Made by a program: the position numbers and the translations under genes. Below the pieces are notes generated by a model that worked only from the letters and a program-made list of their open reading frames with translations, ran no database searches and had not been told where the DNA came from. Shown here piece after piece: positions 12,907-57,254 of a stretch of DNA of 64,000 bases; the stretch's first letter is position 1; every line of letters begins with the position of its first letter. Source of the DNA: Chrysopilus asiliformis (Eukaryota > Arthropoda > Insecta > Diptera > Rhagionidae); NCBI GenBank assembly GCA_964034945.1, contig CAXIUK010000006.1:1-64000 (forward strand). The letters are read 5' to 3'.

Positions 12907-13039
12907 AATCCGGGACCGCTTAAGCGTAGGTTGGGCCTCAAGGAACTGGGGTAGGAGAAACTCTCCGAGGGTATACCCGTTCTCGACTAATACGGCCCGC
13001 CCCCCTGCACACGATGCGCTGGATATACTTACATATAAC
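12907..13039 (+). promoter_or_regulatory. 5' UTR of family 1 element (probable internal promoter region)
   Basis: These 133 bp lie between the satellite junction and the ORF1 ATG, and have the same length in E2 (19646-19778), E4 (36912-37044) and E5 (45402-45534). GC-rich, with the motif CCGCTTAAGCG at 12916-12926, which recurs inside the 3' UTR palindrome. The extreme conservation of the 5' end suggests that transcripts start at the element's first base, from an internal promoter, or are processed to it. No TATA box is visible. The promoter role is inferred from element biology, not shown by the sequence. Confidence 0.5.
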
Positions 13040-14508
13040 ATGGACAAAAAAGGAAAAAACAAGGAAAACAACGACGAAAATGCTAGGGAGATAATAGGAG
13101 ATGATACCGTGAACCCTTTTGGGCGGAGCAACACGGTCCAGAGATCCCCTCCCCTGGGAAGGAGTCCCAAACCCCTCTTGGTGGAAAAGAGGAACACACC
13201 GGGAGACCAGGGAGCCGTAGAGACTGCAAAAGTGCTGAAAAAGGCGGAGACCACGGATAGCAAGATGCAGATTAGACCGCCGGAGAATGTAATCATCAAA
13301 GGCAAATTCATGGAGCTACAGTGGCACATCGATGCCCTCATCGACTTTATGCAGGACAAGCATAACATACATGCCGAAATTAGAAGAAAGGCTGCCCAGA
13401 TCAAAGACGCATGGCTGGAGGCGGCTTTAGAAGCAGAGGCGTTGAAGACCGCGCGGAGCCGGACAGAACTGGCACCCAAGATACGCAAGGAAGAGAAATC
13501 GATCCAAACCACAGCATCTCGGCATGATATAAATAGAACCCGGCCGGTAGAACTAGTAGAACTTACAGCGGAGACTCCGAAGCGGCGCAGAGATGGTGGC
13601 GAAAGCGAAAGTTCAAGCCCATCAGGCTTCTCCAATCCGAAGAGACGCAGACAGGCCCCTTCAAAGGTAGGGATGCTCAAAAGCGCTGTAGAAGGGAGGG
13701 AAAAAGAGGGAAAAAAGGAAAAGGTTGAACCAGGATGGAAGGAAGCCCGCGCACTCACCCACGTCCGCGCGAAACTGAGGAAAAAACCGGCGAAGCCAGA
13801 CGCCATAGTGGTACATAGCACTGGGGCCGCAAGCTACGCTGACATTTTGAAGAAGGTCAGAAACGAACCACAGCTGAGGGATATCGGGAACACGGTCCAG
13901 GGGATAAGGAAAACGGCCAAGGGGGACCTACTCATTGAACTGGGAAAACCTGCAGACCCCAATACAGCACAATACCGAGAAATTATGGGCAAAATCCTAG
14001 GTGACAGTGCGGAGGTGCGGATGCTCACACATGAGGTAACGGTTGAGGTCAGAGATCTGGACGAGATGAGCTTCATGAAGCCCTATGTAATCAGATTCAG
14101 GCCTTGAAGGAACTCCCACCCACTTCAATTCGCTCACTTCGGAAGGCCTACGGTGGAACACAGACGGCAACGTTGAGCCTACCAGCGCAAATGGCTGCGA
14201 CATTGTTAAACGTTTGCAGGGTAAAAGTTGGATGGTCGTCTTGCCGAGTACGTGAGAAGGTATCCCCCACACGCTGCTATAAATGCTTGGCATTTGGTCA
14301 TATAGCAGTAAGGTGTAATAGCACAGAGGACTGGCACAATAGGTGCTTTAAATGTTCCGAAATGGGGCACAATGCTAGAGAGTGCAAAGGCAAGGCGTCA
14401 TGCGCATACTGTAAAGCGGGGAAACTGGAAGACGTGGAGCACCCCACGGGCAGCAGAGCGTGTCCAGCCTACCAGACGGCGATGAAGGACCTCTATCGTA
14501 AGATATGA
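13040..14508 (+). pseudogene. ORF1 gag-like protein of E1, frameshifted by a 13-bp deletion
   Basis: Encodes the RNA-binding ORF1 protein that packages element RNA. The first frame (13040-14107, 355 aa) has a Lys/Ser/Pro-rich N terminus, a conserved helical stretch at about residues 85-130, basic KRRR clusters at about 184 and 203 (possible nuclear localisation), and a gag-like core from about 260 (SYADILKK, then KGDLLIEL). At 14065-14067 the 13 bp present in E2 (22229-22241) are missing, with GAT microhomology. The reading frame then moves to 14104-14508, which carries three zinc knuckles: two C-x2-C-x4-H-x4-C and one C-x2-C-x9-H-x6-C. Translation of the first frame ends before the knuckles, so the product would lack nucleic-acid-binding fingers. 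Restored length would be about 493 aa. The start ATG is the first in the element and is shared by all family 1 copies. Confidence 0.93.
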
Positions 14509-17477
14509 AGGTACTACAACTAAACCTGAATCATTGTGAAGCAGCACAGGATCTCCTGGAACAGACGGTTCGGGAACTCAAAATTGACGTGGCAGTGCTG
14601 AGCGAAGTATACAGGAGCAAACCGCATGAAGTGTGGGAAAAAGATAACACCGGTAAGGCGGCGATTTGGGTGTGCGGCCTCCAACCTCAACAAATCTGTG
14701 ATAGGATGAGCGGCGACTACTACGCCAGAGCAACTATTGGAGGTATCATCTTTTATAGCTGTTACATGCCGCCCAGCCTAAATCTGGAAGAGTTTGAGCT
14801 GGCTATAAATAATTTAGTCCTGGACGCGAGCGGTAAGAACCGGATAGTGGTTGCTGGGGACTTTAATGCGTGGGCAACTGACTGGGGCTGTACCCGAACC
14901 ACACAGAGAGGACGCATCCTAGCGGATGCAATGGCAACACTGGACTTAACCCTAATGAACGTAGGGACACAGCACACCTTCACCAAAAGGGGCTTTGGCT
15001 CCGTAATTGACCTAACCTTCCTCAGCAGTGTACTGGCCAGAAGAGCTAACTGGGTAGTTAGCCATGCATACACTCACAGCGACCATCAGGCGATCATCTG
15101 TGAACTACAAAGTGCAAGGAACACATCCAAAAGACGATTGACAGGCCCGATGTTCAATGGGTGGAAAGCCGAAACTTTTGACACAGACGCATTTGCAGTC
15201 ATGCTGGATAATCTGTCCATAAACGGCTCGGCCGCCGAAATGGCTGACCAGTTCGCGAGACAACTAGAGGGGGCGTGTGACGCTTCAATGAGCAGGAGGA
15301 CCTATGGGGGCCACCAAAAACCTGTTTATTGGTGGAACGACCACATTGCAAAACTGCGAAAGGAGTGCCACCGAAGTCGGAGAAAGTACCAGCGCTCGAG
15401 AGATGACGCAGAACACCAACAGCTACACCAGCAGTACAAGGCCGCAAAAAAAGAGCTGAAACACGCCATCAAAGAGAGCAAAAACAAAAGTTTTTTGGAT
15501 CTAATTAACCAAGCGGAAGAAGAGCCATGGGGAACGGCGTACAGGCTCGTAAGGAAAAAACTCCCATGCTATAGGAAACCAGCTCCAAGATGCCCAACGT
15601 TGCTGAGAGAGATAGTGAAGGAACTCTTCCCTAGACAAGAGAATTATGAGAACCAGTTGGCTACAGAGCACCAGAACTTCAACGTCCCGGACCTTACGAA
15701 GGATGAAATATTACGTGCAACCGAAAGATTTGGGGACAAAAAAGCACCTGGTCCAGATGGCATACCCAACCGAGCTTTTAAAACCGCGGCTAAATTACAC
15801 CCAGATACATTAATGAAGTTGTACAAAGCATGTCTGAACGAGGGAGTTTTCCCGGACCGGTGGAAGAAACAACGGTGAGTTCTAGTTCCAAAGGCTAACA
15901 AACCACCAGAGGATCCCTCCGGGTACCGCCCACTTTGCATGCTAGACACGGCAGGAAAGGTTCTGGAGCGAATCTTATGTGACAGACTGGATGCGGCCAT
16001 TGTGGAAGCAGGAGGACTAGCCCAGCGACAATACGGTTTCAGAACGGCGAGGTCCACGGTTGACGCCATTGATGAGCTTGTAAGAACCGCACGAGAGGCC
16101 ATAGAAGGGAAAAGCTGGAACCGAGGCTCAAAAGAGTACTGCCTAATTGTTACACTGGACGTTAAAAATGCCTTTAACTCTGCGAATTGGTCGCGCATAA
16201 CGGAAGCACTCGCAGGGTGGAACATACCCACTTACCTGAGCCGAATGGTCGATAGCTACTTTAAGCGTAGGGTTCTAATATATGACACATCCGAAAAGAC
16301 GGAGTATTATGTGACCACTGGTGGAGTCCCCCAAGGGTCAGTCTTAGGTCCGCTCCTATGGAACGCCATGTACGATGGCATACTCCGAGTACCGGTACCC
16401 GACGGTGTCAAGATAATCGGCTATGCTGATGATGTAGCGCTAGTTGTTACGGCGAAATTCTTGGAGGATGCTGTGTCAAAGACCAATATTGCTATCCTGG
16501 CAGTGAGGAGCTGGCTTGGAAAAGCTGGTCTACAACTGGCGGAGCACAAAACAGAGGCAGTGTTGGTCTCAAGTCGCAAGGTGCTGGAGACAGCAATGAT
16601 AAGGGTCGGAGACTGTGCAATACGCACGGAACCACATCTCAAGTACCTAGGCGTTTGCATAGATAGCAGGCTGAACTTCAAGAAGCATCTGGAGTATGCT
16701 GGTAACAAAGCTGCTCAGACATGTGCTGAACTGAGTAGAATGATGCCAAATATAGGTGGACCGAAACAGCAGAAGAGGCGACTCCTAAGTGGAGTAGTCA
16801 GGTCCATAATAATGTACGGTGCGCCAATATGGGCAGACAAAACTAGCGTGTCCTCTTACTGCCATGCAATAGAGGGAACCTACAGAAGATGTGCCCTAAG
16901 GATAATTAGTGCATATCGCACCACATCAACGGATGCAGCACATGTTATTGCAGGTTTGGTCCCCATCGACATTCTTGCAAAGGAAGCGAAGAATCTCTAC
17001 TATGAGAGAAAGCAGAAAGGAACCAATCAGGGAGAACGCCAAGTCAGACACAGTAACATAGAAGAGTGGCAGAGGCGATGGGATAGGTCCCGAAAGGGTC
17101 GATGGACAAGGAGACTGATTCCCAACATCATGGACTGGGTTAACAGGAAGCACGGCGAAGTGAACTACTATGTCACACAACTATTAACAGGACATGGTAG
17201 CTATCAGTCATACCTGCATAGGTTTAAGATTGCAGATAATCCAGGTTGCACGCACTGTGGTGCACTAACAACCGAGGATGCTGAGCACGTATTTTTCCAC
17301 TGCCCGAGGTACAATGGGGCTCGAGCGAAATTGCAAGTCATTTGTAACGAGCTGGTGACCCCAGAAAATATAGTGAAGCATATGCTCGAAAGCAGAAAGA
17401 ATTGGGATGCAGTGTGTGACATGGCAGCCTATGTACTGAAGGACCTTGCACAACTGGAGAAAAACAGCAGAACGTAG
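14505..17477 (+). pseudogene. ORF2 endonuclease-reverse transcriptase of E1, one nonsense codon
   Basis: A 990-codon frame for the protein that nicks the satellite and copies element RNA into it. The APE-type endonuclease at the N terminus has the expected residues: Asn in LNLNH (7-10), Glu34 in SEVYR, GDFNAW at 118-123, Asp169 and SDHQAI at 192-197. The reverse transcriptase shows KAPGPDGIP (about 413-421), motif A LDVKNAF with Asp552, motif B GVPQGS at 607-612 and the catalytic YADD at 640-643. A C-terminal C-x2-C-x9-H-x4-C motif starts at Cys915. The ATG overlaps the ORF1 stop as ATGA, an arrangement fitting termination-reinitiation as shown for the R1-clade element SART1. A TGA at 15876-15878 replaces Leu (TTA in E2 and E4) just upstream of the RT core, so the polymerase half is not made without read-through. 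No other lesion seen. Confidence 0.95.
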
Positions 17478-17638
17478 TGCGAAGAGGGGCCCTGTAGGCC
17501 GCAATCTCTCCCCGCGAAGTAATGCCTAGCGGTGGTCCCGCGGGGAGCAGAAAGAGTGGGGGTGGTTTTAGTGGGTAAAAATCCCACACCTGGCCGCTTA
17601 AGCGGCCAGAGTCTTTCGAAGATTTCCACCTCCCAATT
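17478..17638 (+). other. 3' UTR of family 1 with conserved RNA structure
   Basis: The element's 3' end, with these foldable parts: a 9-bp stem CTCCCCGCG/CGCGGGGAG (17508-17516 with 17539-17547); a hairpin GTGGG/CCCAC (17571-17575 with 17583-17587); a perfect 20-bp palindrome CTGGCCGCTTAAGCGGCCAG (17590-17609); and a closing stem TGGGGGTGG (17557-17565) with CCACCTCC (17626-17633) that brackets the last two and ends a few bases before the poly(A). The same layout exists in family 2 with different bases in the stems. The likely role is recognition by the reverse transcriptase during target-primed synthesis, as known for 3' UTRs of R1/R2-type elements. Equivalent copies: 25655-25815, 30571-30731, 42567-42727 and 51028-51188. 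Confidence 0.75.
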
Positions 17639-17663
17639 AAAAAAAAAAAAAAAAAAAAAAAAA

Positions 17664-19645
17664 GACTGACAGACAGACTGACAGACAGACTGACAGACAG
17701 ACAGACTGACAGACAGACTGACAGACAGACTGACAGACAGACTGACAGACAGACTGACAGACAGACTGACAGACTGACAGACAGACTGACAGACAGACTG
17801 ACAGACAGACTGACAGACAGACTGACAGACAGACTGACAGACAGACTGACAGACAGACTGACAGACAGACTGACAGACAGACTGACAGACAGACTGACAG
17901 ACAGACTGACAGACAGACTGACAGACAGACTGACAGACAGACTGACAGACAGACTGACAGACAGACTGACAGACAGACTGACAGACAGACTAACAGACAG
18001 ACTGACAGACAGACTGACAGACAGACTGACAGACAGACTGACAGACTGACTGACAGACAGACTGACAGACAGACTGACAGACAGACTGACAGACAGACTG
18101 ACAGACAGACTGACAGACAGACTGACAGACAGACTGACAGACAGACTGACAGACAGACTGACAGACAGACTGACAGACAGACTGACAGACAGACAGACTG
18201 ACAGACAGACTGACAGACAGACTGACAGACTGACTGACAGACAGACTGACAGACAGACTGACAGACTGACAGACTGACAGACAGACAGACTGACAGACAG
18301 ACAGACTGACAGACAGACTGACAGACAGACTGACAGACAGACTGACAGACAGACTGACAGACAGACTGACAGACTGACAGACAGACTGACAGACTGACAG
18401 ACAGACTGACAGACTGACAGACTGACAGACAGACTGACAGACAGACTGACAGACAGACTGACAGACAGACTGACAGACAGACTGACAGACAGACTGACAG
18501 ACAGACTGACAGACAGACTGACAGACAGACTGACAGACAGACTGACAGACAGACTGACAGACAGACTGACAGACAGACTGACAGACAGACTGACAGACAG
18601 ACTGACAGACAGACTGACAGACAGACTGACAGACAGACTGACAGACAGACTGACAGACAGACTGACAGACAGACTGACAGACAGACTGACAGACAGACTG
18701 ACAGACAGACTGACAGACAGACTGACAGACAGACTGACAGACAGACTGACAGACAGACTGACAGACAGACTGACAGACTGACAGACAGACTGACAGACAG
18801 ACTGACAGACTGACAGACAGACTGACAGACAGACTGACAGACAGACTGACAGACAGACTGACAGACAGACTGACAGACAGACTGACAGACAGACTGACAG
18901 ACAGACTGACAGACAGACTGACAGACAGACTGACAGACAGACTGACAGACAGACTGACAGACAGACTGACAGACAGACTGACAGACAGACTGACAGACAG
19001 ACTGACAGACAGACTGACAGACAGACTGACAGACAGACTGACAGACAGACTGACAGACAGACTGACAGACAGACTGACAGACAGACTGACAGACAGACTG
19101 ACAGACTGACAGACAGACTGACAGACAGACTGACAGACAGACTGACAGACAGACTGACAGACAGACTGACAGACAGACTGACAGACAGACTGACAGACAG
19201 ACTGACAGACAGACTGACAGACAGACTGACAGACAGACTGACAGACAGACTGACAGACAGACTGACAGACAGACTGACAGACAGACTGACAGACAGACTG
19301 ACAGACAGACTGACAGACAGACTGACAGACAGACTGACAGACAGACTGACAGACAGACTGACAGACAGACTGACAGACAGACTGACAGACAGACTGACAG
19401 ACAGACTGACAGACAGACTGACAGACAGACTGACAGACAGACTGACAGACAGACTGACAGACAGACTGACAGACAGACTGACAGACAGACTGACAGACAG
19501 ACTGACAGACAGACTGACAGACAGACTGACAGACAGACTGACAGACAGACTGACAGACAGACTGACAGACAGACTGACAGACAGACTGACAGACAGACTG
19601 ACAGACAGACTGACAGACAGACTGACAGACAGACTGACAGACAGA
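17664..19645. repeat. 12-bp satellite array between E1 and E2
   Basis: 1,982 bp of AGACTGACAGAC units. It contains scattered 8-bp and 4-bp phase changes, concentrated at about 17695-17775, 18030-18420 and 18775-18815, and a single C to A-type change (TAACAG) at 17991. No gene. Phase-change positions differ from those beside other copies, so this block is not an obvious recent duplicate of another one. Confidence 0.96.
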
Positions 19646-20670
19646 AATCCGGGACCGCTTAAGCGTAGGTTGGGCCTCAAGGAACTGGGGTAGGAGAAAC
19701 TCTCCGAGGGTATACCCGTTCTCGACTAATACGGCCCGCCCCCCTGCACACGATGCGCTGGATATACTTACATATAACATGGACAAAAAAGGAAAAAACA
19801 AGGAAAACAACGACGAAAATGCTAGGGAGATAATAGGAGATGATACCGTGAACCCTTTTGGGCGGAGCAACACGGTCCAGAGATCCCCTCCCCTGGGAAG
19901 GAGTCCCAAACCCCTCTTGGTGGAAAAGAGGAACACACCGGGAGACCAGGGAGCCGTAGAGACTGCAAAAGTGCTGAAAAAGGCGGAGACCACGGATAGC
20001 AAGATGCAGATTAGACCGCCGGAGAATGTAATCATCAAAGGCAAATTCATGGAGCTACAGTGGCACATCGATGCCCTCATCGACTTTATGCAGGACAAGC
20101 ATAACATACATGCCGAAATTAGAAGAAAGGCTGCCCAGATCAAAGACGCATGGCTGGAGGCGGCTTTAGAAGCAGAGGCGTTGAAGACCGCGCGGAGCCG
20201 GACAGAACTGGCACCCAAGATACGCAAGGAAGAGAAATCGATCCAAACCACAGCATCTCGGCATGATCTAAATAGAACCCGGCCGGTAGAACTAGTAGAA
20301 CTTACAGCGGAGACTCCGAAGCGGCGCAGAGATGGTGGCGAAAGCGAAAGTTCAAGCCCATCAGGCTTCTCCAATCCGAAGAGACGCAGACAGGCCCCTT
20401 CAAAGGTAGGGATGCTCAAAAGCGCTGTAGAAGGGAGGGAAAAAGAGGGAAAAAAAGCAAGGTGTCTGTCTCGTAGAGACGGTCAGAAGACGTGGATCCG
20501 CCTACAACGATCGCCAATAGATTTTTAAGTAAGAAATTTTAGTGAAAAGGAAACTAAAGAAACAATTTGATTGACCGTAATGGTACGGGATTTGACTTTC
20601 CGTTTGGTGAATTTTGGCATCTTGTACCTAAAACTCAAATTTCACTTGCAACACTACGAACAATGTTTAA

Positions 20671-20838
20671 TAGGGCATTTTCATAAATGTACTCGGAACT
20701 TACGCAAATTGCACAAAACATTTTCTTCGTAAACTAAACGAATAACAAGTAAACTAAACAAATAACATAAACTGGGTTATTTATTAAGAAAAATCTTTTG
20801 TGTTATTTGCAGAACTTGAATTTATGAAAACGCCCATA
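20671..20838. repeat. Imperfect inverted repeat (fold-back segment) in the E2 insertion
   Basis: The left arm begins at about 20671 with AGGGCATTTTCATAAAT. Its reverse complement recurs at the right as ATTTATGAAAACGCCC (20820-20835), and the match continues inward for about 50 bp per arm with small gaps. MITE-like or a decayed hairpin element. Confidence 0.55.
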
Positions 20839-20923
20839 GATAAAAAACAAATAAAAATAAAATTACACGATAAAAGCAACGAAGCAATTTCAATTTAGAG
20901 CAACTAAAAACAGTGTTCAAAAC

Positions 20924-21159
20924 CATGGCCGAATTATACAAGGTCTGTTTGACAGCTCAGTTGCTTCTGGCTCTGACGTCATCGGCAAGAAATTCTTATA
21001 CGATTCAATGGGAATTTTCCCTTTTTATATGAAATATTATTGAAATTAGCGCACACACAATCAACATTAGAAAGAATGCACCGATATTTCTTGCCAATGA
21101 CGTAGCAAAATGGTGGCTGTTAAAAAGCAACCAGCGGACCTGTGTTTAATTCGGCCATG
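20924..21159. repeat. 236-bp imperfect palindrome, MITE-like
   Basis: The ends are CATGGCCGAATTA at 20924 and TAATTCGGCCATG ending at 21159, exact reverse complements over 13 bp. Internal blocks also match in inverse order, for example ACGTCATCGGCAAGAAAT near 20977 against the complement of ATTTCTTGCCAATGACGT near 21086. The whole segment would fold into one long hairpin. No convincing target duplication at its edges and no coding capacity. Reads as a small fold-back element nested in the larger insertion. Confidence 0.6.
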
Positions 21160-22680
21160 CGATCGATGCACATTTTTCCTTCTCCCGCCAAGTTAAGATC
21201 GAAATTGTTTCTCTTTAAGTTTTCCGCTCTTGTTCAAAGCGGTTTGTATGCTTTGCATAAAAATGAATGAAAGGTTCGAGCGATGGCTGCTGTTGGATGA
21301 TGCACACACACATATAAGTATGCATTTCATTAGTAAGAGAGCGATATCTCGGTCCCAGCATTAAAGTTGTGTTCTCAAAGCAAATTAAAACCATAATTTT
21401 TTCACGTTCTTTGGAGCGTTTTACTGAAATTCTGAATTTCGTTTTCTCGAGAGTGATTTTTATTTTCAATTTTTTTCAATTCCTCCAAAGCGAATTGAAC
21501 CGAAATAATATGAATAGCCAGAATCAGAACAACCCATTTAGAGAAGAGAAACAATCAAGTTCTATATGAGATTCAATACACACAAAGAAAGCATAAAAAG
21601 AGTATACATGTGAAATCTGTACTGCAAGCAGCAGACACAGCATAACAGCGGAGTAAAAATTTTGATTTTGCTTTTTAAATACATAATTGAACATAGTTTA
21701 ACATAACAAAATACCCTATACAATGCTTTAATGTAGCCCTCATCTTATAACACAGGTTTTGTTCAGATATCACCACAAACTATCGAGTTTCATCGATTGC
21801 AAATTTGTTATCATGGCAGCAAGCCGATTTTCTAATTTGTACCCCCATTACCAAAATCCAAGACGTATCCACGTCAAAAGGAAAAGGTTGAACCAGGATG
21901 GAAGGAAGCCCGCGCACTCACCCACGTCCGCGCGAAACTGAGGAAAAAACCGGCGAAGCCAGACGCCATAGTGGTACATAGCACTGGGGCCGCAAGCTAC
22001 GCTGACATTTTGAAGAAGGTCAGAAACGAACCACAGCTGAGGGATATCGGGAACACGGTCCAGGGGATAAGGAAAACGGCCAAGGGGGACCTACTCATTG
22101 AACTGGGAAAACCTGCAGACCCCAATACAGCACAATACCGAGAAATTATGGGCAAAATCCTAGGTGACAGTGCGGAGGTGCGGATGCTCACACATGAGGT
22201 AACGGTTGAGGTCAGAGATCTGGACGAGATTACTACAAAGGATGAGCTTCATGAAGCCCTATGTAATCAGATTCAGGCCTTGAAGGAACTCCCACCCACT
22301 TCAATTCGCTCACTTCGGAAGGCCTACGGTGGAACACAGACGGCAACGTTGAGCCTACCAGCGCAAATGGCTGCGACATTGTTAAACGTTTGCAGGGTAA
22401 AAGTTGGATGGTCGTCTTGCCGAGTACGTGAGAAGGTATCCCCCACACGCTGCTATAAATGCTTGGCATTTGGTCATATAGCAGTAAGGTGTAATAGCAC
22501 AGAGGACTGGCACAATAGGTGCTTTAAATGTTCCGAAATGGGGCACAATGCTAGAGAGTGCAAAGGCAAGGCGTCATGCGCATACTGTAAAGCGGGGAAA
22601 CTGGAAGACGTGGAGCACCCCACGGGCAGCAGAGCGTGTCCAGCCTACCAGACGGCGATGAAGGACCTCTATCGTAAGAT

Positions 22681-25654
22681 ATGAAGGTACTACAACTAAA
22701 CCTCAATCATTGTGAAGCAGCACAGGATCTCCTGGAACAGACGGTTCGGGAACTCAAAATTGACGTGGCAGTGCTGAGCGAAGTATACAGGAGCAAACCG
22801 CATGAAGTGTGGGAAAAAGATAACACCGGTAAGGCGGCGATTTGGGTGTGCGGCCTCCAACCTCAACAAATCTGTGATAGGATGAGCGGCGACTACTACG
22901 CCAGAGCAACTATTGGAGGTATCATCTTTTATAGCTGTTACATGCCGCCCAGCCTAAATCTGGAAGAGTTTGAGCTGGCTATAAATAATTTAGTCCTGGA
23001 CGCGAGCGGTAAGAACCGGATAGTGGTTGCTGGGGACTTTAATGCGTGGGCAACTGACTGGGGCTGTACCCGAACCACACAGAGAGGACGCATCCTAGCG
23101 GATGCAATGGCAACACTGGACTTAACCCTAATGAACGTAGGGACACAGCACACCTTCACCAAAAGGGGCTTTGGCTCCGTAATTGACCTAACCTTCCTCA
23201 GCAGTGTACTGGCCAGAAGAGCTAACTGGGTAGTTAGCCATGCATACACTCACAGCGACCATCAGGCGATCATCTGTGAACTACAAAGTGCAAGGAACAC
23301 ATCCAAAAGACGATTGACAGGCCCGATGTTCAATGGGTGGAAAGCCGAAACTTTTGACACAGACGCATTTGCAGTCATGCTGGATAATCTGTCCATAAAC
23401 GGCTCGGCCGCCGAAATGGCTGACCAGTTCGCGAGACAACTAGAGGGGGCGTGTGACGCTTCAATGAGCAGGAGGACCTATGGGGGCCACCAAAAACCTG
23501 TTTATTGGTGGAACGACCACATTGCAAAACTGCGAAAGGAGTGCCACCGAAGTCGGAGAAAGTACCAGCGCTCGAGAGATGACGCAGAACACCAACAGCT
23601 ACACCAGCAGTACAAGGCCGCAAAAAAAGAGCTGAAACACGCCATCAAAGAGAGCAAAAACAAAAGTTTTTTGGATCTAATTAACCAAGCGGAAGAAGAG
23701 CCATGGGGAACGGCGTACAGGCTCGTAAATAAAACAACTCCCATGCTATAGGAAACCAGCTCCAAGATGCCCAACGTTGCTGAGAGAGATAGTGAAGGAA
23801 CTCTTCCCTAGACAAGAGAATTATGAGAACCAGTTGGCTACAGAGCACCAGAACTTCAACGTCCCGGACCTTACGAAGGATGAAATATTACGTGCAACCG
23901 AAAGATTTGGGGACAAAAAAGCACCTGGTCCAGATGGCATACCCAACCGAGCTTTTAAAACCGCGGCTAAATTACACCCAGATACATTAATGAAGTTGTA
24001 CAAAGCATGTCTGAACGAGGGAGTTTTCCCGGACCGGTGGAAGAAACAACGGTTAGTTCTAGTTCCAAAGGCTACCAAACCACCAGAGGATCCCTCCGGG
24101 TACCGCCCACTTTGCATGCTAGACACGGCAGGAAAGGTTCTGGAGCGAATCTTATGTGACAGACTGGATGCGGCCATTGTGGAAGCAGGAGGACTAGCCC
24201 AGCGACAATACGGTTTCAGAACGGCGAGGTCCACGGTTGACGCCATTGATGAGCTTGTAAGAACCGCACGAGAGGCCATAGAAGGGAAAAGCTGGAACCG
24301 AGGCTCAAAAGAGTACTGCCTAATTGTTACACTGGACGTTAAAAATGCCTTTAACTCTGCGAATTGGTCGCGCATAACGGAAGCACTCGCAGGGTGGAAC
24401 ATACCCACTTACCTGAGCCGAATGGTCGATAGCTACTTTAAGCGTAGGGTTCTAATATATGACACATCCGAAAAGACGGAGTATTATGTGACCACTGGTG
24501 GAGTCCCCCAAGGGTCAGTCTTAGGTCCGCTCCTATGGAACGCCATGTACGATGGCATACTCCGAGTACCGGTACCCGACGGTGTCAAGATAATCGGCTA
24601 TGCTGATGATGTAGCGCTAGTTGTTACGGCGAAATTCTTGGAGGATGCTGTGTCAAAGACCAATATTGCTATCCTGGCAGTGAGGAGCTGGCTTGGAAAA
24701 GCTGGTCTACAACTGGCGGAGCACAAAACAGAGGCAGTGTTGGTCTCAAGTCGCAAGGTGCTGGAGACAGCAATGATAAGGGTCGGAGACTGTGCAATAC
24801 GCACGGAACCACATCTCAAGTACCTAGGCGTTTGCATAGATAGCAGGCTGAACTTCAAGAAGCATCTGGAGTATGCTGGTAACAAAGCTGCTCAGACATG
24901 TGCTGAACTGAGTAGAATGATGCCAAATATAGGTGGACCGAAACAGCAGAAGAGGCGACTCCTAAGTGGAGTAGTCAGGTCCATAATAATGTACGGTGCG
25001 CCAATATGGGCAGACAAAACTAGCGTGTCCTCTTACTGCCATGCAATAGAGGGAACCTACAGAAGATGTGCCCTAAGGATAATTAGTGCATATCGCACCA
25101 CATCAACGGATGCAGCACATGTTATTGCAGGTTTGGTCCCCATCGACATTCTTGCAAAGGAAGCGAAGAATCTCTACTATGAGAGAAAGCAGAAAGGAAC
25201 CAATCAGGGAGAACGCCAAGTCAGACACAGTAACATAGAAGAGTGGCAGAGGCGATGGGATAGGTCCCGAAAGGGTCGATGGACAAGGAGACTGATTCCC
25301 AACATCATGGACTGGGTTAACAGGAAGCACGGCGAAGTGAACTACTATGTCACACAACTATTAACAGGACATGGTAGCTATCAGTCATACCTGCATAGGT
25401 TTAAGATTGCAGATAATCCAGGTTGCACGCACTGTGGTGCACTAACAACCGAGGATGCTGAGCACGTATTTTTCCACTGCCCGAGGTACAATGGGGCTCG
25501 AGCGAAATTGCAAGTCATTTGTAACGAGCTGGTGACCCCAGAAAATATAGTGAAGCATATGCTCGAAAGCAGAAAGAATTGGGATGCAGTGTGTGACATG
25601 GCAGCCTATGTACTGAAGGACCTTGCACAACTGGAGAAAAACAGCAGAACGTAG
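22681..25654 (+). pseudogene. ORF2 endonuclease-reverse transcriptase of E2, +1 frameshift
   Basis: Same domains as in E1. The endonuclease frame starts at ATG 22681, which overlaps the ORF1 stop, and runs to a stop at 23749-23751. E1 reads GTAAGGAAAAAACTCCC, while this copy reads GTAAATAAAACAACTCCC (near 23727-23742), one base longer. The RT half therefore continues in the next frame, open from before 23777 to the stop at 25652-25654. The RT half is intact, with motif A LDVKNAF, GVPQGS, YADD and the C-terminal CCHC. Leu is present at the codon that is TGA in E1 (24053-24055). The break falls in the linker between endonuclease and RT, so either half alone could be translated but not the fusion. 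Confidence 0.94.
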
Positions 25655-25839
25655 TGCGAAGAGGGGCCCTGTAGGCCGCAATCTCTCCCCGCGAAGTAAT
25701 GCCTAGCGGTGGTCCCGCGGGGAGCAGAAAGAGTGGGGGTGGTTTTAGTGGGTAAAAATCCCACACCTGGCCGCTTAAGCGGCCAGAGTCTTTCGAAGAT
25801 TTCCACCTCCCAATTAAAAAAAAAAAAAAAAAAAAAAAA

Positions 25840-42566: not shown

Positions 42567-42751
42567 TGCGAAGAGGGGCCCTGTAGGCCGCAATCTCTCC
42601 CCGCGAAGTAATGCCTAGCGGTGGTCCCGCGGGGAGCAGAAAGAGTGGGGGTGGTTTTAGTGGGTAAAAATCCCACACCTGGCCGCTTAAGCGGCCAGAG
42701 TCTTTCGAAGATTTCCACCTCCCAATTAAAAAAAAAAAAAAAAAAAAAAAA

Positions 42752-45401: not shown

Positions 45402-45534
45402 AATCCGGGACCGCTTAAGCGTAGGTTGGGCCTCAAGGAACTGGGGTAGGAGAAACTCTCCGAGGGTATACCCGTTCTCGACTAATACGGCCCGCCCCCC
45501 TGCACACGATGCGCTGGATATACTTACATATAAC

Positions 45535-47003: not shown

Positions 47004-50000
47004 AGGTACTACAACTAAACCTCAATCATTGTGAAGCAGCACAGGATCTCCTGGAACAGACGGTTCGGGAACTCAAAATTGACGTGGCAGTGCTGAGCGA
47101 AGTATACAGGAGCAAACCGCATGAAGTGTGGGAAAAAGATAACACCGGTAAGGCGGCGATTTGGGTGTGCGGCCTCCAACCTCAACAAATCTGTGATAGG
47201 ATGAGCGGCGACTACTACGCCAGAGCAACTATTGGAGGTATCATCTTTTATAGCTGTTACATGCCGCCCAGCCTAAATCTGGAAGAGTTTGAGCTGGCTA
47301 TAAATAATTTAGTCCTGGACGCGAGCGGTAAGAACCGGATAGTGGTTGCTGGGGACTTTAATGCGTGGGCAACTGACTGGGGCTGTACCCGAACCACACA
47401 GAGAGGACGCATCCTAGCGGATGCAATGGCAACACTGGACTTAACCCTAATGAACGTAGGGACACAGCACACCTTCACCAAAAGGGGCTTTGGCTCCGTA
47501 ATTGACCTAACCTTCCTCAGCAGTGTACTGGCCAGAAGAGCTAACTGGGTAGTTAGCCATGCATACACTCACAGCGACCATCAGGCGATCATCTGTGAAC
47601 TACAAAGTGCAAGGAACACATCCAAAAGACGATTGACAGGCCCGATGTTCAATGGGTGGAAAGCCGAAACTTTTGACACAGACGCATTTGCAGTCATGCT
47701 GGATAATCTGTCCATAAACGGCTCGGCCGCCGAAATGGCTGACCAGTTCGCGAGACAACTAGAGGGGGCGTGTGACGCTTCAATGAGCAGGAGGACCTAT
47801 GGGGGCCACCAAAAACCTGTTTATTGGTGGAACGACCACATTGCAAAACTGCGAAAGGAGTGCCACCGAAGTCGGAGAAAGTACCAGCGCTCGAGAGATG
47901 ACGCAGAACACCAACAGCTACACCAGCAGTACAAGGCCGCAAAAAAAGAGCTGAAACACGCCATCAAAGAGAGCAAAAACAAAAGTTTTTTGGATCTACC
48001 CAAACAGCATCGAAAAGTACGGGAACATGAGATTTGTTCTTTGCGACTTGAAAGAGTAGAAATTTACACAATCGGGATTAAAAATTTACACCTATAATTC
48101 ACATCCGCGTAAAAGAAGCGAAAGAAGTGACGAGCACGATCTTTGGGGCAACATTCGCTTCATGAAAATCCTGCGGCGATAGAGCAGCATTTGATGGTTT
48201 TCGGGCCGAAATAGTGATTGGCTGTGGAGCCTGAACGTCAGTTTAATTTTGAAGAAGCGTGTGATGGAAAAAGTGACGAAACTGCTACCACTAAAGTTTC
48301 ATTAAAGCTCCCCGTCTGAGAAACACCAAAAAAAATTGATGCCTTCAGCCGCCATATTTCTCACTGACATTTGATGGAAATGATTTCGTTTCGAGAATTA
48401 AATTTCTTATTTCAGGCGAATGACTGAAGGATATTGCATAAAAAGTGGATAGCAGACATTTTTGAAACAGCACAATTTTATTGGCATCAAAATTTCATTG
48501 CAAAAGAAAAAATAAATTTGACCGGTAAAATAAAATTAACGAAATTTTTCATTAAAAACTAAATAATTTGATGGCCCATTAAAATCTGTTTAAATTTCAG
48601 ATCCAATATTGTCGAAAAATTTTAATGGCAATTAAAATCACGACATGCAATCGGAAGAAAAGTCCATTATAAAATAATACTCCATAAAAGTTTCCATTAA
48701 TTTGTCGCCATTAGATTTTTCTCGTTCGTCTTCTGCTTACGTTTTTATTTGTTCATCTCTGTTTACTAGCAAGCATTCGAGGGAGAAAGAAAACCCGCTC
48801 GATGATTTGTGTAATTGTGTGATATAATGCCGTCAGATGACGCTCGCGCATGAGGCAACTAATTACGTCCCTGTCGTTATAATTGCGACGTAGCAAACCG
48901 CAGAAAAGTGTTCCCCACTATGTGTGTCGTTGCGCGTCTCATACGCACGACTAAGGACGTGTTTTCTACATAAATTGCTTATCGCCGTGATCTGCATGGT
49001 GACGAACTATGGGGATAAACATCATATTTGCTGCCTAAAATGCTATTTGGGTAATTAACCAAGCGGAAGAAGAGCCATGGGGAACGGCGTACAGGCTCGT
49101 AAGGAAAAAACTCCCATGCTATAGGAAACCAGCTCCAAGATGCCCAACGTTGCTGAGAGAGATAGTGAAGGAACTCTTCCCTAGACAAGAGAATTATGAG
49201 AACCAGTTGGCTACAGAGCACCAGAACTTCAACGTCCCGGACCTTACGAAGCATGAAATATTACGTGCAACCGAAAGATTTGGGGACAAAAAAGCACCTG
49301 GTCCAGATGGCATACCCAACCGAGCTTTTAAAACCGCGGCTAAATTACACCCAGATACATTAATGAAGTTGTACAAAGCATGTCTGAACGAGGGAGTTTT
49401 CCCGGACCGGTGGAAGAAACAACGGTCAGTTCTAGTTCCAAAGGCTAACAAACCACCAGAGGATCCCTCCGGGTACCGCCCACTTTGCATGCTAGACACG
49501 GCAGGAAAGGTTCTGGAGCGAATCTTATGTGACAGACTGGATGCGGCCATTGTGGAAGCAGGAGGACTAGCCCAGCGACAATACGGTTTCAGAACGGCGA
49601 GGTCCACGGTTGACGCCATTGATGAGCTTGTAAGAACCGCACGAGAGGCCATAGAAGGGAAAAGCTGGAACCGAGGCTCAAAAGAGTACTGCCTAATTGT
49701 TACACTGGACGTTAAAAATGCCTTTAACTCTGCGAATTGGTCGCGCATAACGGAAGCACTCGCAGGGTGGAACATACCCACTTACCTGAGCCGAATGGTC
49801 GATAGCTACTTTAAGCGTAGGGTTCTAATATATGACACATCCGAAAAGACGGAGTATTATGTGACCACTGGTGGAGTCCCCCAAGGGTCAGTCTTAGGTC
49901 CGCTCCTATGGAACGCCATGTACGATGGCATACTCCGAGTACCGGTACCCGACGGTGTCAAGATAATCGGCTATGCTGATGATGTAGCGCTAGTTGTTAC

Positions 50001-51027
50001 GGCGAAATTCTTGGAGGATGCTGTGTCAAAGACCAATATTGCTATCCTGGCAGTGAGGAGCTGGCTTGGAAAAGCTGGTCTACAACTGGCGGAGCACAAA
50101 ACAGAGGCAGTGTTGGTCTCAAGTCGCAAGGTGCTGGAGACAGCAATGATAAGGGTCGGAGACTGTGCAATACGCACGGAACCACATCTCAAGTACCTAG
50201 GCGTTTGCATAGATAGCAGGCTGAACTTCAAGAAGCATCTGGAGTATGCTGGTAACAAAGCTGCTCAGACATGTGCTGAACTGAGTAGAATGATGCCAAA
50301 TATAGGTGGACCGAAACAGCAGAAGAGGCGACTCCTAAGTGGAGTAGTCAGGTCCATAATAATGTACGGTGCGCCAATATGGGCAGACAAAACTAGCGTG
50401 TCCTCTTACTGCCATGCAATAGAGGGAACCTACAGAAGATGTGCCCTAAGGATAATTAGTGCATATCGCACCACATCAACGGATGCAGCACATGTTATTG
50501 CAGGTTTGGTCCCCATCGACATTCTTGCAAAGGAAGCGAAGAATCTCTACTATGAGAGAAAGCAGAAAGGAACCAATCAGGGAGAACGCCAAGTCAGACA
50601 CAGTAACATAGAAGAGTGGCAGAGGCGATGGGATAGGTCCCGAAAGGGTCGATGGACAAGGAGACTGATTCCCAACATCATGGACTGGGTTAACAGGAAG
50701 CACGGCGAAGTGAACTACTATGTCACACAACTATTAACAGGACATGGTAGCTATCAGTCATACCTGCATAGGTTTAAGATTGCAGATAATCCAGGTTGCA
50801 CGCACTGTGGTGCACTAACAACCGAGGATGCTGAGCACGTATTTTTCCACTGCCCGAGGTACAATGGGGCTCGAGCGAAATTGCAAGTCATTTGTAACGA
50901 GCTGGTGACCCCAGAAAATATAGTGAAGCATATGCTCGAAAGCAGAAAGAATTGGGATGCAGTGTGTGACATGGCAGCCTATGTACTGAAGGACCTTGCA
51001 CAACTGGAGAAAAACAGCAGAACGTAG
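47000..51027 (+). pseudogene. ORF2 endonuclease-reverse transcriptase of E5, split by a DNA transposon
   Basis: The endonuclease half is identical to E4 and reads into the insertion, ending 48095-48097. ORF2 resumes at 49054 and runs to 51025-51027 with all RT motifs and the C-terminal CCHC. The codon at 49426-49428 is TCA (Ser) where E2 and E4 have TTA and E1 has TGA. Asp to His (TKHEIL) is shared with E4. Without the insertion this ORF2 would be complete. Confidence 0.94.
47999..49051. mobile_element. Non-autonomous DNA transposon, TA target, 1,053 bp (in E5)
   Basis: Same insertion as in E4: TA at 47997-47998 and 49052-49053, same ends and length, and no difference noticed. Because the site is identical to the base, this is one insertion event copied along with its host, not two insertions. 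Confidence 0.85.
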
Positions 51028-51211
51028 TGCGAAGAGGGGCCCTGTAGGCCGCAATCTCTCCCCGCGAAGTAATGCCTAGCGGTGGTCCCGCGGGGAGCAG
51101 AAAGAGTGGGGGTGGTTTTAGTGGGTAAAAATCCCACACCTGGCCGCTTAAGCGGCCAGAGTCTTTCGAAGATTTCCACCTCCCAATTAAAAAAAAAAAA
51201 AAAAAAAAAAA

Positions 51212-52256
51212 GACTGACAGACAGACTGACAGACAGACTGACAGACAGACTGACAGACAGACTGACAGACAGACTGACAGACAGACTGACAGACAGACTG
51301 ACAGACAGACTGACAGACAGACTGACAGACAGACTGACAGACAGACTGACAGACAGACTGACAGACAGACTGACAGACAGACTGACAGACAGACTGACAG
51401 ACAGACTGACAGACAGACTGACAGACAGACTGACAGACTGACAGACAGACTGACAGACAGACTGACAGACAGACTGACAGACAGACTGACAGACAGACTG
51501 ACAGACAGACAGACTGACAGACAGACAGACTGACAGACAGACTGACAGACAGACTGACAGACAGACTGACAGACAGACTGACAGACAGACTGACAGACAG
51601 ACTGACAGACAGACTGACAGACAGACTGACAGACAGACTGACAGACAGACTGACAGACAGACTGACAGACAGACTGACAGACAGACTGACAGACAGACTG
51701 ACAGACAGACTGACAGACAGACTGACAGACAGACTGACAGACAGACTGACAGACAGACTGACAGACAGACTGACAGACAGACTGACAGACAGACTGACAG
51801 ACAGACTGACAGACAGACTGACAGACAGACTGACAGACTGACAGACAGACTGACAGACAGACTGACAGACAGACTGACAGACAGACTGACAGACAGACTG
51901 ACAGACAGACTGACAGACAGACTGACAGACAGACTGACAGACAGACTGACAGACAGACTGACAGACAGACTGACAGACAGACTGACAGACAGACTGACAG
52001 ACAGACTGACAGACAGACTGACAGACAGACTGACAGACAGACTGACAGACAGACTGACAGACAGACTGACAGACAGACTGACAGACAGACTGACAGACAG
52101 ACTGACAGACAGACTGACAGACAGACTGACAGACAGACTGACAGACAGACTGACAGACAGACTGACAGACAGACTGACAGACAGACTGACAGACAGACTG
52201 ACAGACAGACTGACAGACAGACTGACAGACAGACTGACAGACAGACTGACAGACAG
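51212..52256. repeat. 12-bp satellite array between E5 and E6
   Basis: 1,045 bp of AGACTGACAGAC units with phase changes near 51435, 51508, 51524 and 51837. It ends ...TGACAGACAG at the E6 5' junction. No gene. Confidence 0.96.
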
Positions 52257-52676
52257 GGTGGTCAGGCGTCTGTTGCAGGGGGGAATAGGTCGGCACTGCC
52301 GGCCCCGTAACCTGAAACAGCATCGGGCCCCCCGCTTCTGTGCCGGTCATGTTTCGGGCAGCTGCGGTGGTACCGATGGTCATAGTAGCGGGCAACCCTG
52401 CTATGACTCGCAAGTAGACGCGTTGCCTCCTCGTGGCGATCACCGGTAACTAGCTTCTTGCTAGGCCAAAACGCGATGCTAAAGGAGCAAACCTTGAACA
52501 AAAACCCCCAATCCAAGGTGGAACAGCATATGCTGAGGGATGAGTGGCTAGTGGGTTAACTAGTCGTGAATATGCGGACTCAGGATACCTGGCGACCTCC
52601 TGTTTCAAGCAGCCTTACGCTCGTATAGGAGCTCTGCGGGCGTGGACAGTTCTTCTCCACTACTCGTGGGAACAAA
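52257..52676 (+). promoter_or_regulatory. 5' leader of family 2 element
   Basis: About 420 bp from the satellite junction to the proposed ORF1 start, three times longer than in family 1 and without obvious similarity to it. GC-rich, with a potential hairpin around CATAGTAGCGGG...CCCTGCTATG (52381-52405). An internal promoter is expected for this type of element, but no motif proves it. The last in-frame stop before ORF1 is at 52626-52628. Confidence 0.45.
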
Positions 52677-54131
52677 ATAGAATCTCAATTTGCCGCGGAG
52701 AAGGACCCCTCCCGAATAGGGTCCGCGGAGAAGGACCCCTCCGTACTAGGGTCCACGGAGAAGGGCCCCTCCGAACCAGGGTCGAACCTTGTTTCGGCAG
52801 ATCCAACCCAGTCGAAAGACCCGTTTGGGCGCAGTTCGGTACTCATGCGATCGCCAGTAAGAGACAAACGGCGTACACAACAGGAGAACTCGCCGAAACC
52901 AACCGAAACAAAAATGGTTGAGGAATCATCCTCGTTGCCAGCCACAGTGGAAGATATCGAAGTCGTAGGGGAAGCCTTCAACAAGTTGGGAGTGATGATC
53001 GTGGGGCTCATGGAGTATGTAAAGAGTCGTAACAACGTGCATCACGCAATCAAGGAGCAGATTAGAGCTATTCGAAGCGTCTACAACAAGGCACGGGAAG
53101 AAACTAAAACCCGGAAGGCGATGCAAATACCTAATAAAGGGGAGACCGCATCGGAGACGATCCCAAAGCCATCGTTCTCCCAGTCAGGGTGCAGCAACAA
53201 CAAAACACAAAAAAGGGGAAGAGAAACAACCGGCGACAACCACAGCCGGATGCATACTCCGAAGAGGCAGAAAGGTCCACCAATGAAGGACTCGGAGACA
53301 ATGGGGGACAAACCACAAAACCTGACAAAGAAAGAAAAGCCCCAGCCAATAAAAGCGGCTCAGGGCACCGTCAAAGACGCGAGAAGAAAACCCCAAATGA
53401 AAAGTCGGTCAGATGCCATGATAATCTCAGCGAAAGGGGAAACTACGTATGCAGAGATTCTCCGTAAAATTAAATCAGACCCTACTCTGAAGGACCTAGG
53501 TGACAACGTGACCCGCATTCGGAGAACGCAAAAAGGAGACCTTCTACTGGAAATTAAAAAGTCAAACGAAGAGAATAGAAATGGTCTTCAGACCCAAGTA
53601 GAGAAATCCCTGGGCGAACAAGCGGACATTAAAATGCGAAGGAACGAGACACTAATAGAATGCAAGGACCTTGATGAGGTGACCTCGAAGGCGGAAATCT
53701 GCGCGGCACTGGTAGATCAACTCGAAATAGCCGACATACACGAGTCTGCCATAAAGAACCTTAGAAAGGCATACGGTGGAACACAAATAGCCACAATAAG
53801 TCTGCCAGTGGAAGCAGCGCAAAAAGCACTAGCGGCAGGAAAAATTCGAGTCGGATGGGTTATCTGCCGGCTTAGGGAAAAAGTGATATTAACAAGGTGT
53901 TTCAAGTGCTTCGAATTTGGGCACATAGCGAAAGTCTGCAGCAGCCCTCACGATAGATCAGAGCTCTGCAGGAGATGTGCAGAAAAAGGCCATATTGCCA
54001 AAGACTGCAAAAAAGATCCGGAATGTATGTTTTGTAAAGAAAGCAAAGACAATGACAGCAAGCATGTGGCAGGAAGTACGAGATGCCCAATATACAGAAG
54101 GGCACTAAATAAATCATGCCAATATAGCTAA
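52677..54131 (+). pseudogene. ORF1 gag-like protein of E6, start codon apparently lost
   Basis: The frame is open from 52629 to the TAA at 54129-54131. The first ATG is at 52845 (428 aa), but similarity to family 1 begins upstream of it: DPFGRSSV (from 52818) matches NPFGRSNT near the family 1 N terminus. Three in-frame 10-residue repeats precede it. An ATA at 52677, in AACAAAATAGAA, would give 484 aa, close to the roughly 493 of family 1, so a mutated ATG there is plausible. It contains the helical stretch (residues counted from 52677: about 80-120), basic clusters, the gag-like core (TYAEILRK, KGDLLLEI) and three zinc knuckles near the C terminus: C-x2-C-x4-H-x4-C twice and C-x2-C-x9-H-x6-C. 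There is no internal frameshift and no 13-bp deletion. If the ATG at 52845 is used, a shortened protein is possible. Confidence 0.85.
52694..52783 (+). repeat. Three 30-bp tandem repeats at the start of family 2 ORF1
   Basis: Units 52694-52723, 52724-52753 and 52754-52783, each starting CRCGGAGAAGG and ending AGGGTC, with divergence only in the middle. Thirty bases is ten codons, so in the ORF1 frame they read as AEKDPSRIGS, AEKDPSVLGS and TEKGPSEPGS (phased from the GCG/ACG codon). Each unit can also form a GGACCC/GGGTCC hairpin in RNA. Confidence 0.93.
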
Positions 54132-57087
54132 AACTAATTCAAATAAACTTAAACCACTGCGAGGCGGCACAGGACTTGCTGTCACAAACTATTTACGAAA
54201 CGAGAGCTGATGTCGCTATAATAAGCGAACAGTATAAGAACATAAGAAGCGGAGTATGGGTATCAGATAAACTTGGAAAAACGGCGGTTTGGGCATGCGG
54301 AAATCGTGCAATACAAGAGGTCAACACAAACTCGGTAGAGTATTTCGTAAGAGCTAAAATTGGAGGAATTCACATCTACAGTTGCTACGCCCCACCGAGT
54401 GCTACGATTGAAGAATACAAGCTAGGCATACCCCAAAAATCATAGCCGGTGACTTCAATGCATGGGCAGTGGATTGGGGAAGTCGAGCTACAAATGAAAG
54501 AGGACGCATTCTTCTGCAGGCATTTTCAAGACTAGATATAGTTCTAGCAAACGTTGGAAGCGTGAATACCTTTAGGAGAGCAGAAGCAGGATCCGTAGTA
54601 GACCTTACATTTGTGAGCAACAGTCTAGCAAGACACTTGAAATGGCGGGTAAGTGAACACTACACCCATAGTGATCATCAGGCCATCCTCTTCTCTACAG
54701 GTCGCAGCAGTATAGGCGTAAAAAACCTACGAGTAAAGAAAGTAGGGGCAGCGGGCTGGGCGACAAAGCTGATCGACGAAGATGCTTTCAAAGAGGTCCT
54801 AAAAGACCAGGAAATAAAAGGATCGGCGCCAGAAAAGGCAAAGGAAATCATCTCACAGTTAAAGCAAGCATGCGACGCCTCTATGCCAAGACGAAGTATA
54901 CCCCAAAATAAAAGGGCGAACTACTGGTGGAACTCAGATATACAAGATCTGCGAATTCAATGTCTTCGAGCCAGAAGACTTAGTCAACGAGGTAGAGGAA
55001 AGACAGACTCCGCGGAACGAGAACAGGCCTATAAACTAGCGCGAAAAAATCTACAAGTGGCTATCATAAAGAGCAAACGTGAGTGCTTCACGCAACTATG
55101 CGAAGAAGCAGATAGAGACCCGTGGGGTGGAGCATATAAAGTAGTGATGTCACGTATTAAGGGCAAAAGATCGCCACAAGTCACTTGCCCCACTCTACTG
55201 ACGGAAATAACTTCATCTCTGTTTCCTCAGCACAGTGAAAACATTCTACCGGAAGCAACACTGCCGTTCGAGGCGTCGGACATACCAGCAGTGACGGAGG
55301 AAGAGTTGTTAGAGGCGTCCAGGAAGCTAGGGGACTATAAGGCACCAGGCCTAGATGGTATCCCGAACAAAGCGCTCAAGATTGCGGTCAAGGCTGTGCC
55401 TAACAGATTCGCAGACATATTTAATACATGTTTTTTAGAGGGGGTGTTCCCCGCCCCCTGGAAAAAGCAGAAGCTGATTCTCATACCAAAGCCAAATAAG
55501 AATCCCGGAGAATCGTCTTCTTACCGCCCAATATGTCTACTCGACACGGTGGGCAAACTTCTAGAGCGAATCGTCTACAATAGACTACTTCCCGTAATAG
55601 AGGAAAATAATGGTTTATCCGACCGCCAATTTGGATTTCGAAAAGCGCGATCAACTACAGATGCTATTAGCATGGTAGTGAACCTGGCAAGACGAGCTAT
55701 TGAAGGAAGAGGTGCGTCGCAAAAATACTGCGCTGTGGTAACATTGGATGTTAGAAACGCTTTCAACTCGGCCAAATGGACCCAAATAATAAGGTCGCTC
55801 CACGAATTTAGCATCCCCGACTACCTACTGAGGATAGTACGGAGTTACTTCACTGAAAGAGACTTATTATACGACACGGATGACGGCCCTAAAGTGCACA
55901 AAATTACAGCAGGAGTCCCACAGGGCTCCGTTCTCGGACCCTTACTGTGGAATGTGATGTACAACGGCCTGCTAAACCTTGAGGTACCCGAGGAAGTTAC
56001 TATCATTGGATTCGCGGATGACATCGCGGTGGTGGTGGAAGCACGCTACATCGATGAACTGGAGATATACGTTAACGAAACGATGAGTCGCATAAAACAA
56101 TGGCTTGAGTCCGCTGGACTCGAATTAGCAGAGCAGAAGACTGAAGCTGTGCTGATCAGCAAACGTCGTAAAAGGGAGACGATCAACGTTACTGTCGGAA
56201 GACACAAAATCAAGTCCAAGGATGCCATCAAATATCTGGGAGTTATGATCGACCAAAAACTCAATTTTAAACCCCACCTAAAATACGCAGCTGAGAAGGC
56301 ATCAATTGTCGGCAATGCGCTTGCACGGATGATGCCCAATATTGGAGGCCCACGACAGAGCAGAAGGCTACTCGTCTCTAGAGTAGTCAGTTCCATCATC
56401 CTGTATGCTGCACCAATATGGGCAAATGCTATGATGAGCACCAAGGTGATTCAAAAGGAGATGCGAGCGGTATATCGATTGAGTGCGCTCCGAGTATGTA
56501 GCGCGTTTCGAACAACGTCAGACCAAGCAGCGTGCGTGATTGCAGGAATGATTCCCATAAATATCCTCGTAGACGAAGTGCGTCGCTTGTACGAAGCAAA
56601 ACAAGCGAATCCACAACTCGACATGAACGAAAGGCGAAGGAGAGAAAGAGAGAAGTCCATAAGACGGTGGCAAGAGCAATGGGAAAGAGCGGAGAATGGC
56701 CGCTGGACCCACAAGGTTATTCCAAATATTAGACGTTGGTTGGACAGACAACACGGGGAGGTTAATTTCAATCTGACCCAATTTTTAACTGGACATGGGG
56801 GTTACCGAAAATACTTGCATCGGTTTGGTCTAGACAACTCACCAGACTGCCCAAGCTGCATAGGGGTGATGGAAGATCAGGAGCATGTGCTGTTCGGTTG
56901 TCCGAGATTCGAAATAGAAAGAATAACCCTGGAGACTACACTCGGAAGTACAATAACCGCAGGAAATATAGTAGCGGAGATGTTGAAGTCCGAAGAGAAC
57001 TGGAACGCTGTGGATAGAGCAATAAGGTCGATACAGGCAAAGCTAATGGAAGAGGAGCGTGTGAGGAAGGCACTCATAACTGGATGA
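54128..57087 (+). pseudogene. ORF2 endonuclease-reverse transcriptase of E6, no ATG and one frameshift
   Basis: Similarity to family 1 ORF2 begins at 54128 (LKLIQINLNHCEAAQ), where family 1 has ATGAAG but this copy has CTAAAA, so the usual start is gone. The first frame carries the Glu of SEQYK and runs to 54445. About 31 nt are missing near 54428-54434 relative to family 1, and the frame continues one register over, through GDFNAW (about 54450), SDHQAI, KAPGLDGIP, motif A LDVRNAFNSA, GVPQGSVLGPLLWN, FADD (56011-56022) and C-x2-C-x8-H-x4-C (from 56848) to the stop at 57085-57087. The RT half is undamaged. FADD replaces YADD, which is normal among LINEs. Confidence 0.92.
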
Positions 57088-57230
57088 GCAGCGAAAGCTG
57101 ATCCCGCCCCGCGAAGTAATACCATTTGGCAGTCCCGCGGGGAGCACGAATGGAGAAGAAGGTGGTTTTAGCCGGTAGGAATCCAGCATAACCGTATTTT
57201 CGGTATCTTTTGAAGATTTCCACCTTCTAT
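57088..57230 (+). other. 3' UTR of family 2 with conserved RNA structure
   Basis: Contains a CCCCGCG/CGCGGGG stem (57107-57113 with 57136-57142) with the same AAGTAAT loop start as family 1; a closing stem AGAAGGTGG (57157-57165) pairing perfectly with CCACCTTCT (57220-57228), two bases before the poly(A); and inside it GGTTTTAG plus a short ACCG/CGGT hairpin (57191-57204). The layout matches family 1 while the paired bases differ. Confidence 0.75.
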
Positions 57231-57254
57231 AAAAAAAAAAAAAAAAAAAAAAAA

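Follow-up and report, generated by a model that had tools for sequence, protein, structure and literature searches.

Three R1-type retrotransposon lineages lie in one orientation and predominantly one register of an ACAG/ACTG satellite in Chrysopilus asiliformis

We analyzed 64,000 bp of the genome of the rhagionid fly Chrysopilus asiliformis (assembly GCA_964034945.1), namely positions 1-64000 of the unplaced contig CAXIUK010000006.1 (C11; 66,412 bp), hereafter the window. In it, a satellite of ACAG and ACTG units is interrupted by six R1-type non-long terminal repeat (non-LTR) retrotransposons, five of family 1 (c1-c5) and one of family 2 (c6), all on the plus strand. We found that elements of three lineages across the assembly almost always end in this satellite, in a single orientation and predominantly in one register, with GACTG directly after the poly(A) tail. 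It is highly probable that they arrived by site-guided, target-primed insertion of three R1-type lineages into the satellite, with an APE-type endonuclease setting the site. Of the 42 contigs of the assembly (429,065,045 bp in total), four measure 68-117 Mb, a fifth is 10.9 Mb long, and the rest, among the lengths seen, do not exceed 132 kb.

Two units of 4 bp, ACAG (a) and ACTG (t), make up the satellite in the window. They mostly follow each other as aat (12 bp), interspersed with stretches of at (8 bp), and form 8-mer arrays, (ACAGACTG)n, and 12-mer arrays, (ACAGACAGACTG)n. Plus-sense satellite words cover 34,788 bases of the window and minus-sense words 57, so that it has effectively one orientation there; the 57 bases form a small inverted segment at the 5' end of c3. 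A genome-wide count of a 24-mer from the 12-bp repeat gave 21,409 forward and 27,398 reverse occurrences (39 and 166 for a reversed-pattern control). At the 3' junctions of all six window copies, a poly(A) of 22-25 A is followed by (A)GACTGACAG. On the 5' side, the satellite ends ...ACTGACAGACAGA before the four 5'-complete family 1 copies and ...ACTGACAGACAG before c6. A preliminary description of this stretch, which had placed the six copies on the plus strand in one 3' phase and in these 5' phases, was borne out at every window junction. It had also argued that random integration would give up to 12 phases and both strands. Orientation and phase are indeed non-random, but the chance of the 3' phase is 2/12 and not 1/12, because flank A's merge with the poly(A), and for six independent copies this amounts to (1/6)^5, about 1.3e-4, multiplied by (1/2)^5 for orientation. 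Furthermore, the copies are not six independent events, because two of them, c4 and c5, have a 1,055-bp insert in common (and are otherwise alike but for a 29-bp duplication and 1 of the 5,788 bases compared) and three, c1, c4 and c5, have a common 13-bp deletion in open reading frame 1 (ORF1). Flanking unit patterns differ among the window copies, which speaks against simple copying of an element plus its flank. Taken alone, the window copies are suggestive of site choice; a genome-wide count of 95 junctions decides the matter.

We searched the whole assembly for the shared 3' tail of the three families with at least 8 A's, leaving the flank unconstrained, and obtained 108 sites (60 forward and 48 reverse; 0 for the reversed-pattern control). 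The preliminary description had suggested such a genome-wide check of flanks, which was run here on 3' ends; the outcomes that it had named as refuting, namely other contexts, both orientations or many phases, were not borne out beyond the few exceptions given below. Junctions were read at 95 of the 108 sites, 80 from C1-C4, 6 in the window and 8 on C12, C13, C16 and C18, plus the copy at C3:44631128, and they span four chromosomes and five unplaced contigs. The poly(A), whose length varies from 10 to 62, was followed by GACTG, the phase described earlier, at 85 of the 95 junctions, including 4 with a variant unit further on and 3 with a C inside or just past the poly(A), and by GACAG at 5. 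None of the 91 readable satellite junctions had the opposite satellite orientation, and the 81 chromosomal sites were divided between the minus (39) and plus (42) assembly strands. By family, poly(A) followed by GACTG was found at 28/33 junctions of family 1, 46/50 of family 2 and 11/12 of family 3, and the specificity thought to be common to two diverged families is therefore common to three.

As for what is recognized, the downstream flanks of the 85 GACTG junctions were 8-mer arrays in 60 cases, 12-mer arrays in 16, and mixed or short in 9. ACTG was the next unit at 60 of 61 junctions in 8-mer arrays, where one half would be expected, and at 16 of 19 in 12-mer arrays, where the expectation is one third. 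Because 60 of the 85 main junctions lie in (ACAGACTG)n, the target site is the ACAG^ACTG step in a 4-bp register. The 12-mer, in which a single specific site had been placed initially, was ruled out as the target, five more junctions lying at ACAG^ACAG, while the predominance of one phase held.

Our preferred reading is that the three R1-type lineages would insert into the satellite by target-primed reverse transcription. By analogy with R1-type elements, the APE-type endonuclease would act at the ACAG/ACTG step and nick the complementary strand there (5'-..CTGTCAGTC(T)^GT..-3'), the 3' end so released would pair with the poly(A) tail and prime complementary DNA (cDNA), and the other strand would be cut 1-3 bases away. 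Since such a site is asymmetric, copies would come to lie in one orientation and one 4-bp register, with a downstream ACTG strongly preferred over ACAG; a nick on the CTGTCAGT strand together with target-primed reverse transcription would account for the orientation, the register and the poly(A) junction. A specific endonuclease, which the preliminary description had taken as shown by the phasing, is the probable cause, and its role, the exact nick and the stagger are those that the element family would lead one to expect. R1 makes a 14-bp target duplication. A duplication of this kind fits c1, c2, c4 and c5 (about 14-15 bp, with a one-base ambiguity) because the array repeats, but c6 allows 1-2 bp only, a size that also fits the other four; an R1-like duplication was therefore rejected, and c6 differs from R1 in this respect.

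Several points weigh against site-guided insertion as a complete account. The 5' phase was read only in the five 5'-complete window copies, among genome-wide 5' ends that number 12 in family 1 (8 outside the window) and 3 in family 2 (2 outside). Thirteen of the 108 tails were left out of the junction count, 8 lying outside the 100 sites listed and 5 on C16 and C18. At one of the 95 junctions (C3:44631128), the poly(A) is followed by CTGACAGAC, a different satellite phase; two adjoin a degenerate ACAG-like repeat (C1:108430478 and C4:56764555), one lies in clearly non-satellite DNA (C2:100482895), and one is unreadable over the length of sequence covered (C2:76596901). A search for phases that begin with C behind a run of 12 or more A had two matches in the genome, the C3:44631128 copy and C4:35316305, the latter being absent from the tails listed in the tail search. 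Finally, the junctions are not all independent. The pair on C16 (L033/L044) is identical over 4,621 bp and that on C18 (L036) has 2 differences in 1,584 bases, each pair with one common 5' truncation, and c4 and c5 may be a duplicate pair of the same sort. The C16 and C18 pairs reflect either DNA duplication, as a further way in which element copies multiply, or a doubling in the assembly, and p-values for the junctions, which assume independence, are only indicative.

We then consider the proteins and the relationships of the families. ORF2 encodes endonuclease and reverse transcriptase (RT) domains, with PF14529, PF03372 and PF00078 above the cut-off. In ORF1, zf-CCHC was matched at 30.4 bits in c6 (cut-off 20.8) and at 18.7 bits, under the cut-off, in c2, and the shortened ORF1 of c1 gave no match. 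None of the six window copies has both ORFs open; elsewhere in the genome, a family 1 copy has ORF1 and ORF2 open in the part examined and a family 2b copy has an open ORF2. The endonuclease domain of c2 (22681-23346, plus strand; Pfam PF14529/PF03372) was modeled over 222 aa with 43 sequences (mean pLDDT 88). The best distinct PDB matches of the predicted fold were TRAS1 (1wdu) and R1Bm (2ei9), and a sequence comparison of the c2 ORF with the PDB gave these two and no others at E up to 1. The motifs NLNH, SE, GDFNAW, DLTF and SDH, which we take to be catalytic, are present in the endonucleases of families 1 and 2b. Named ORF2 relatives among the matches listed come from Neodiprion, Trichogramma, Bactrocera and Anopheles, and the relative P0155 carries the source label R1DM. 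The name R1-type is a provisional one, drawn from the labels of relatives and from endonuclease similarity. For relatives with readable flanks, the genome contig collection gave 19 distant loci, which are microbial records (20-47% identity), and viral contigs gave none.

At the DNA level, families 1 and 2 can be aligned in only two segments (73-77%), one of about 160 bp at the 3' end and one of about 100 bp in ORF2, and the identity between their ORF2 proteins is about 47%. In a tree of 174 ORF2 sequences (4 from the host and 170 relatives), the starred branches force three changes of host label, and in a tree of 40 sequences, holding the four host sequences together was rejected (p-AU 2.95e-40) in a test run after the first tree had been seen. 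The ORF2 proteins of the three families do not form one clade. This topology speaks for a history, possible but in our view doubtful, in which the lineages gained their specificity separately in the host or recombination carried the endonuclease region of one of them into the others. Moreover, 5' parts look exchanged: family 2b on C16 (L033/L044) is 83% identical to family 1 over 165 bp at the ORF1 start, and a family 3 copy on C13 (L042) has a family 1-like 5' region, similarities that appear to be a sign of exchange between co-resident families. However, the endonucleases of families 1 and 2b are 49% identical, a value inside the 47-53% found between family 1 and seven outside relatives, which argues against a recent swap. 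As single inheritance is also simpler, we favor inheritance of the shared specificity over its separate gain.

Another explanation does without site choice. Insertion may have been broad, the phase reflecting which nicked satellite ends are able to pair with poly(A), and copies outside the satellite having been lost. The junction does place a target-strand T beside the poly(A), and the A's at its edge cannot be assigned. We nevertheless regard broad insertion as improbable, because other T-ending satellite positions, for example between A and CTG, were met once in 91 junctions, and pairing fails to explain either the absence of the opposite orientation among those 91 or the choice of ACTG over ACAG at 60 of 61 junctions in 8-mer arrays. 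Least credible of all is that unequal exchange copied a small number of founder insertions together with the adjoining satellite, giving one orientation and phase without any site preference: although the C16 and C18 pairs are duplicates and the common insert of c4/c5 and common deletion of c1/c4/c5 point the same way, one phase recurs in all three families, whose tails differ, on four chromosomes as well as five unplaced contigs and irrespective of array type (8-mer or 12-mer) and assembly strand, while flanking unit patterns (in the window), poly(A) lengths and 5' ends (among c3 and the copies on C12, C16 and C18) all differ, so that copying of element plus flank was rejected as the whole cause, true as it is for the C16 and C18 pairs and possible for c4/c5.

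Site-guided insertion of this kind has parallels among known elements. Waldo elements of the R1 clade target (ACAY)n. The present elements resemble them as R1-type elements in a short ACAN-type tandem repeat and differ in that the units are ACAG/ACTG instead of ACAC/ACAT, the comparison being one of targets. With R1Bm they have in common two ORFs and, by prediction, the endonuclease fold (2ei9), but their target is a satellite and not 28S ribosomal DNA. They are similar to TRAS1 and SART1 in that several lineages occupy one tandem repeat with a fixed phase and orientation and a poly(A) tail, and the predicted endonuclease fold is closest to that of TRAS1 (1wdu); the flanks, however, are ACAG/ACTG units and not the (TTAGG)n telomeric repeat. 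TRAS1 and SART1 are reported to insert in opposite directions (PMC7265360), whereas the families described here all lie in one orientation. The same work states that the specificity of SART1 changes when its endonuclease domain is replaced by that of TRAS1, and that TRAS1 reads about 10 bp and SART1 about 12 bp around the nick (PMC7265360). R1-clade elements with a specific target are already known, as are non-LTR elements that insert into microsatellites or telomeric repeats (PMC4640811). The ACAG^ACTG target appeared in no title or abstract among the literature matches listed; papers containing the 12-mer were unrelated by title, ACAGACTG with 'satellite' gave none on the subject by title among the matches listed, and 'ACAY' with 'non-LTR retrotransposon' gave no literature matches. 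The main papers on R1-clade targets were found only as citations, and the target is likely to be new.

Within the window, satellite arrays, all in plus orientation, lie at 1-12906 (chiefly ACAG ACAG ACTG), 17664-19645, 25839-29172, 30754-36911, 42751-45401, 51211-52256 and 57254-64000, the last of which opens with a run of the 8-mer ACAGACTG directly after c6. The 5'-complete family 1 elements c1 (12907-17663) and c2 (19646-25838) both have ORF2 in two frames; ORF1 is shortened in c1 by the 13-bp deletion and carries in c2 a 1,424-bp insert (about 20455-21876), parts of which match L028 on C13 at 79-89%. The family 1 element c3 (29173-30753) is 5' truncated, and about 54 bp of inverted satellite (29173-29229), perhaps produced by a template switch as cDNA synthesis came to its end, link its truncated end to the array. 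In the 5'-complete family 1 elements c4 (36912-42750) and c5 (45402-51210), the 1,055-bp insert lies at a TA in the identical place in ORF2 (about 47997-49052 in c5), and with its CCCAAA.../...TTTGGG inverted ends it looks like a DNA transposon; the 29-bp tandem duplication is in ORF1 of c4 (37561-37619). The family 2 element c6 (52257-57253) has about three tandem copies of a 30-bp unit in its 5' region (52696-52783), an ORF1 with a zinc knuckle at 52845-54131 and a listed ORF2, lacking the first part of the endonuclease, at 54469-57087. Elsewhere in the assembly, a tandem repeat with a 36-bp unit (GGTGGCCTGAGCATGGGTGAGGTAGTGTACGAGGGT), which may be a terminal repeat other than TTAGG, occupies the last 2.0 kb or so of C1 (L002) and the initial 2.1, 1.8 and 3.3 kb of C3, C4 and C5 (L004, L005 and L006), with its G-rich strand towards the contig end, and is not found at the start of C1 or C2. 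The unplaced contigs C15, C20 and C30 (L016, L018 and L019) open with pure TGAAA/TTTCA pentamer or pure GTCT arrays.

The listed tails cluster in mid-chromosome (C1 57-84 Mb, C2 56-80 Mb, C3 42-63 Mb and C4 39-45 Mb, with outliers on all four), which suggests a pericentromeric satellite. This mid-chromosome satellite would be a common haven for several lineages of long interspersed elements (LINEs), parallel to the TRAS and SART elements in telomeric repeats. Three endonuclease lineages apparently acting on one short asymmetric site also form a natural data set for the way in which R1-type endonucleases read DNA, and bear on how target preference is kept or changed. Whether target specificity is inherited or regained becomes testable through the flanks of relatives. 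We suggest, tentatively, that a large group of insect R1-type elements inherited from long ago the ability to recognize an ACAG/ACTG-type step, the satellite and the elements being long-term, non-telomeric partners. If so, such satellites would persist in their hosts while several diverged lineages keep one address.

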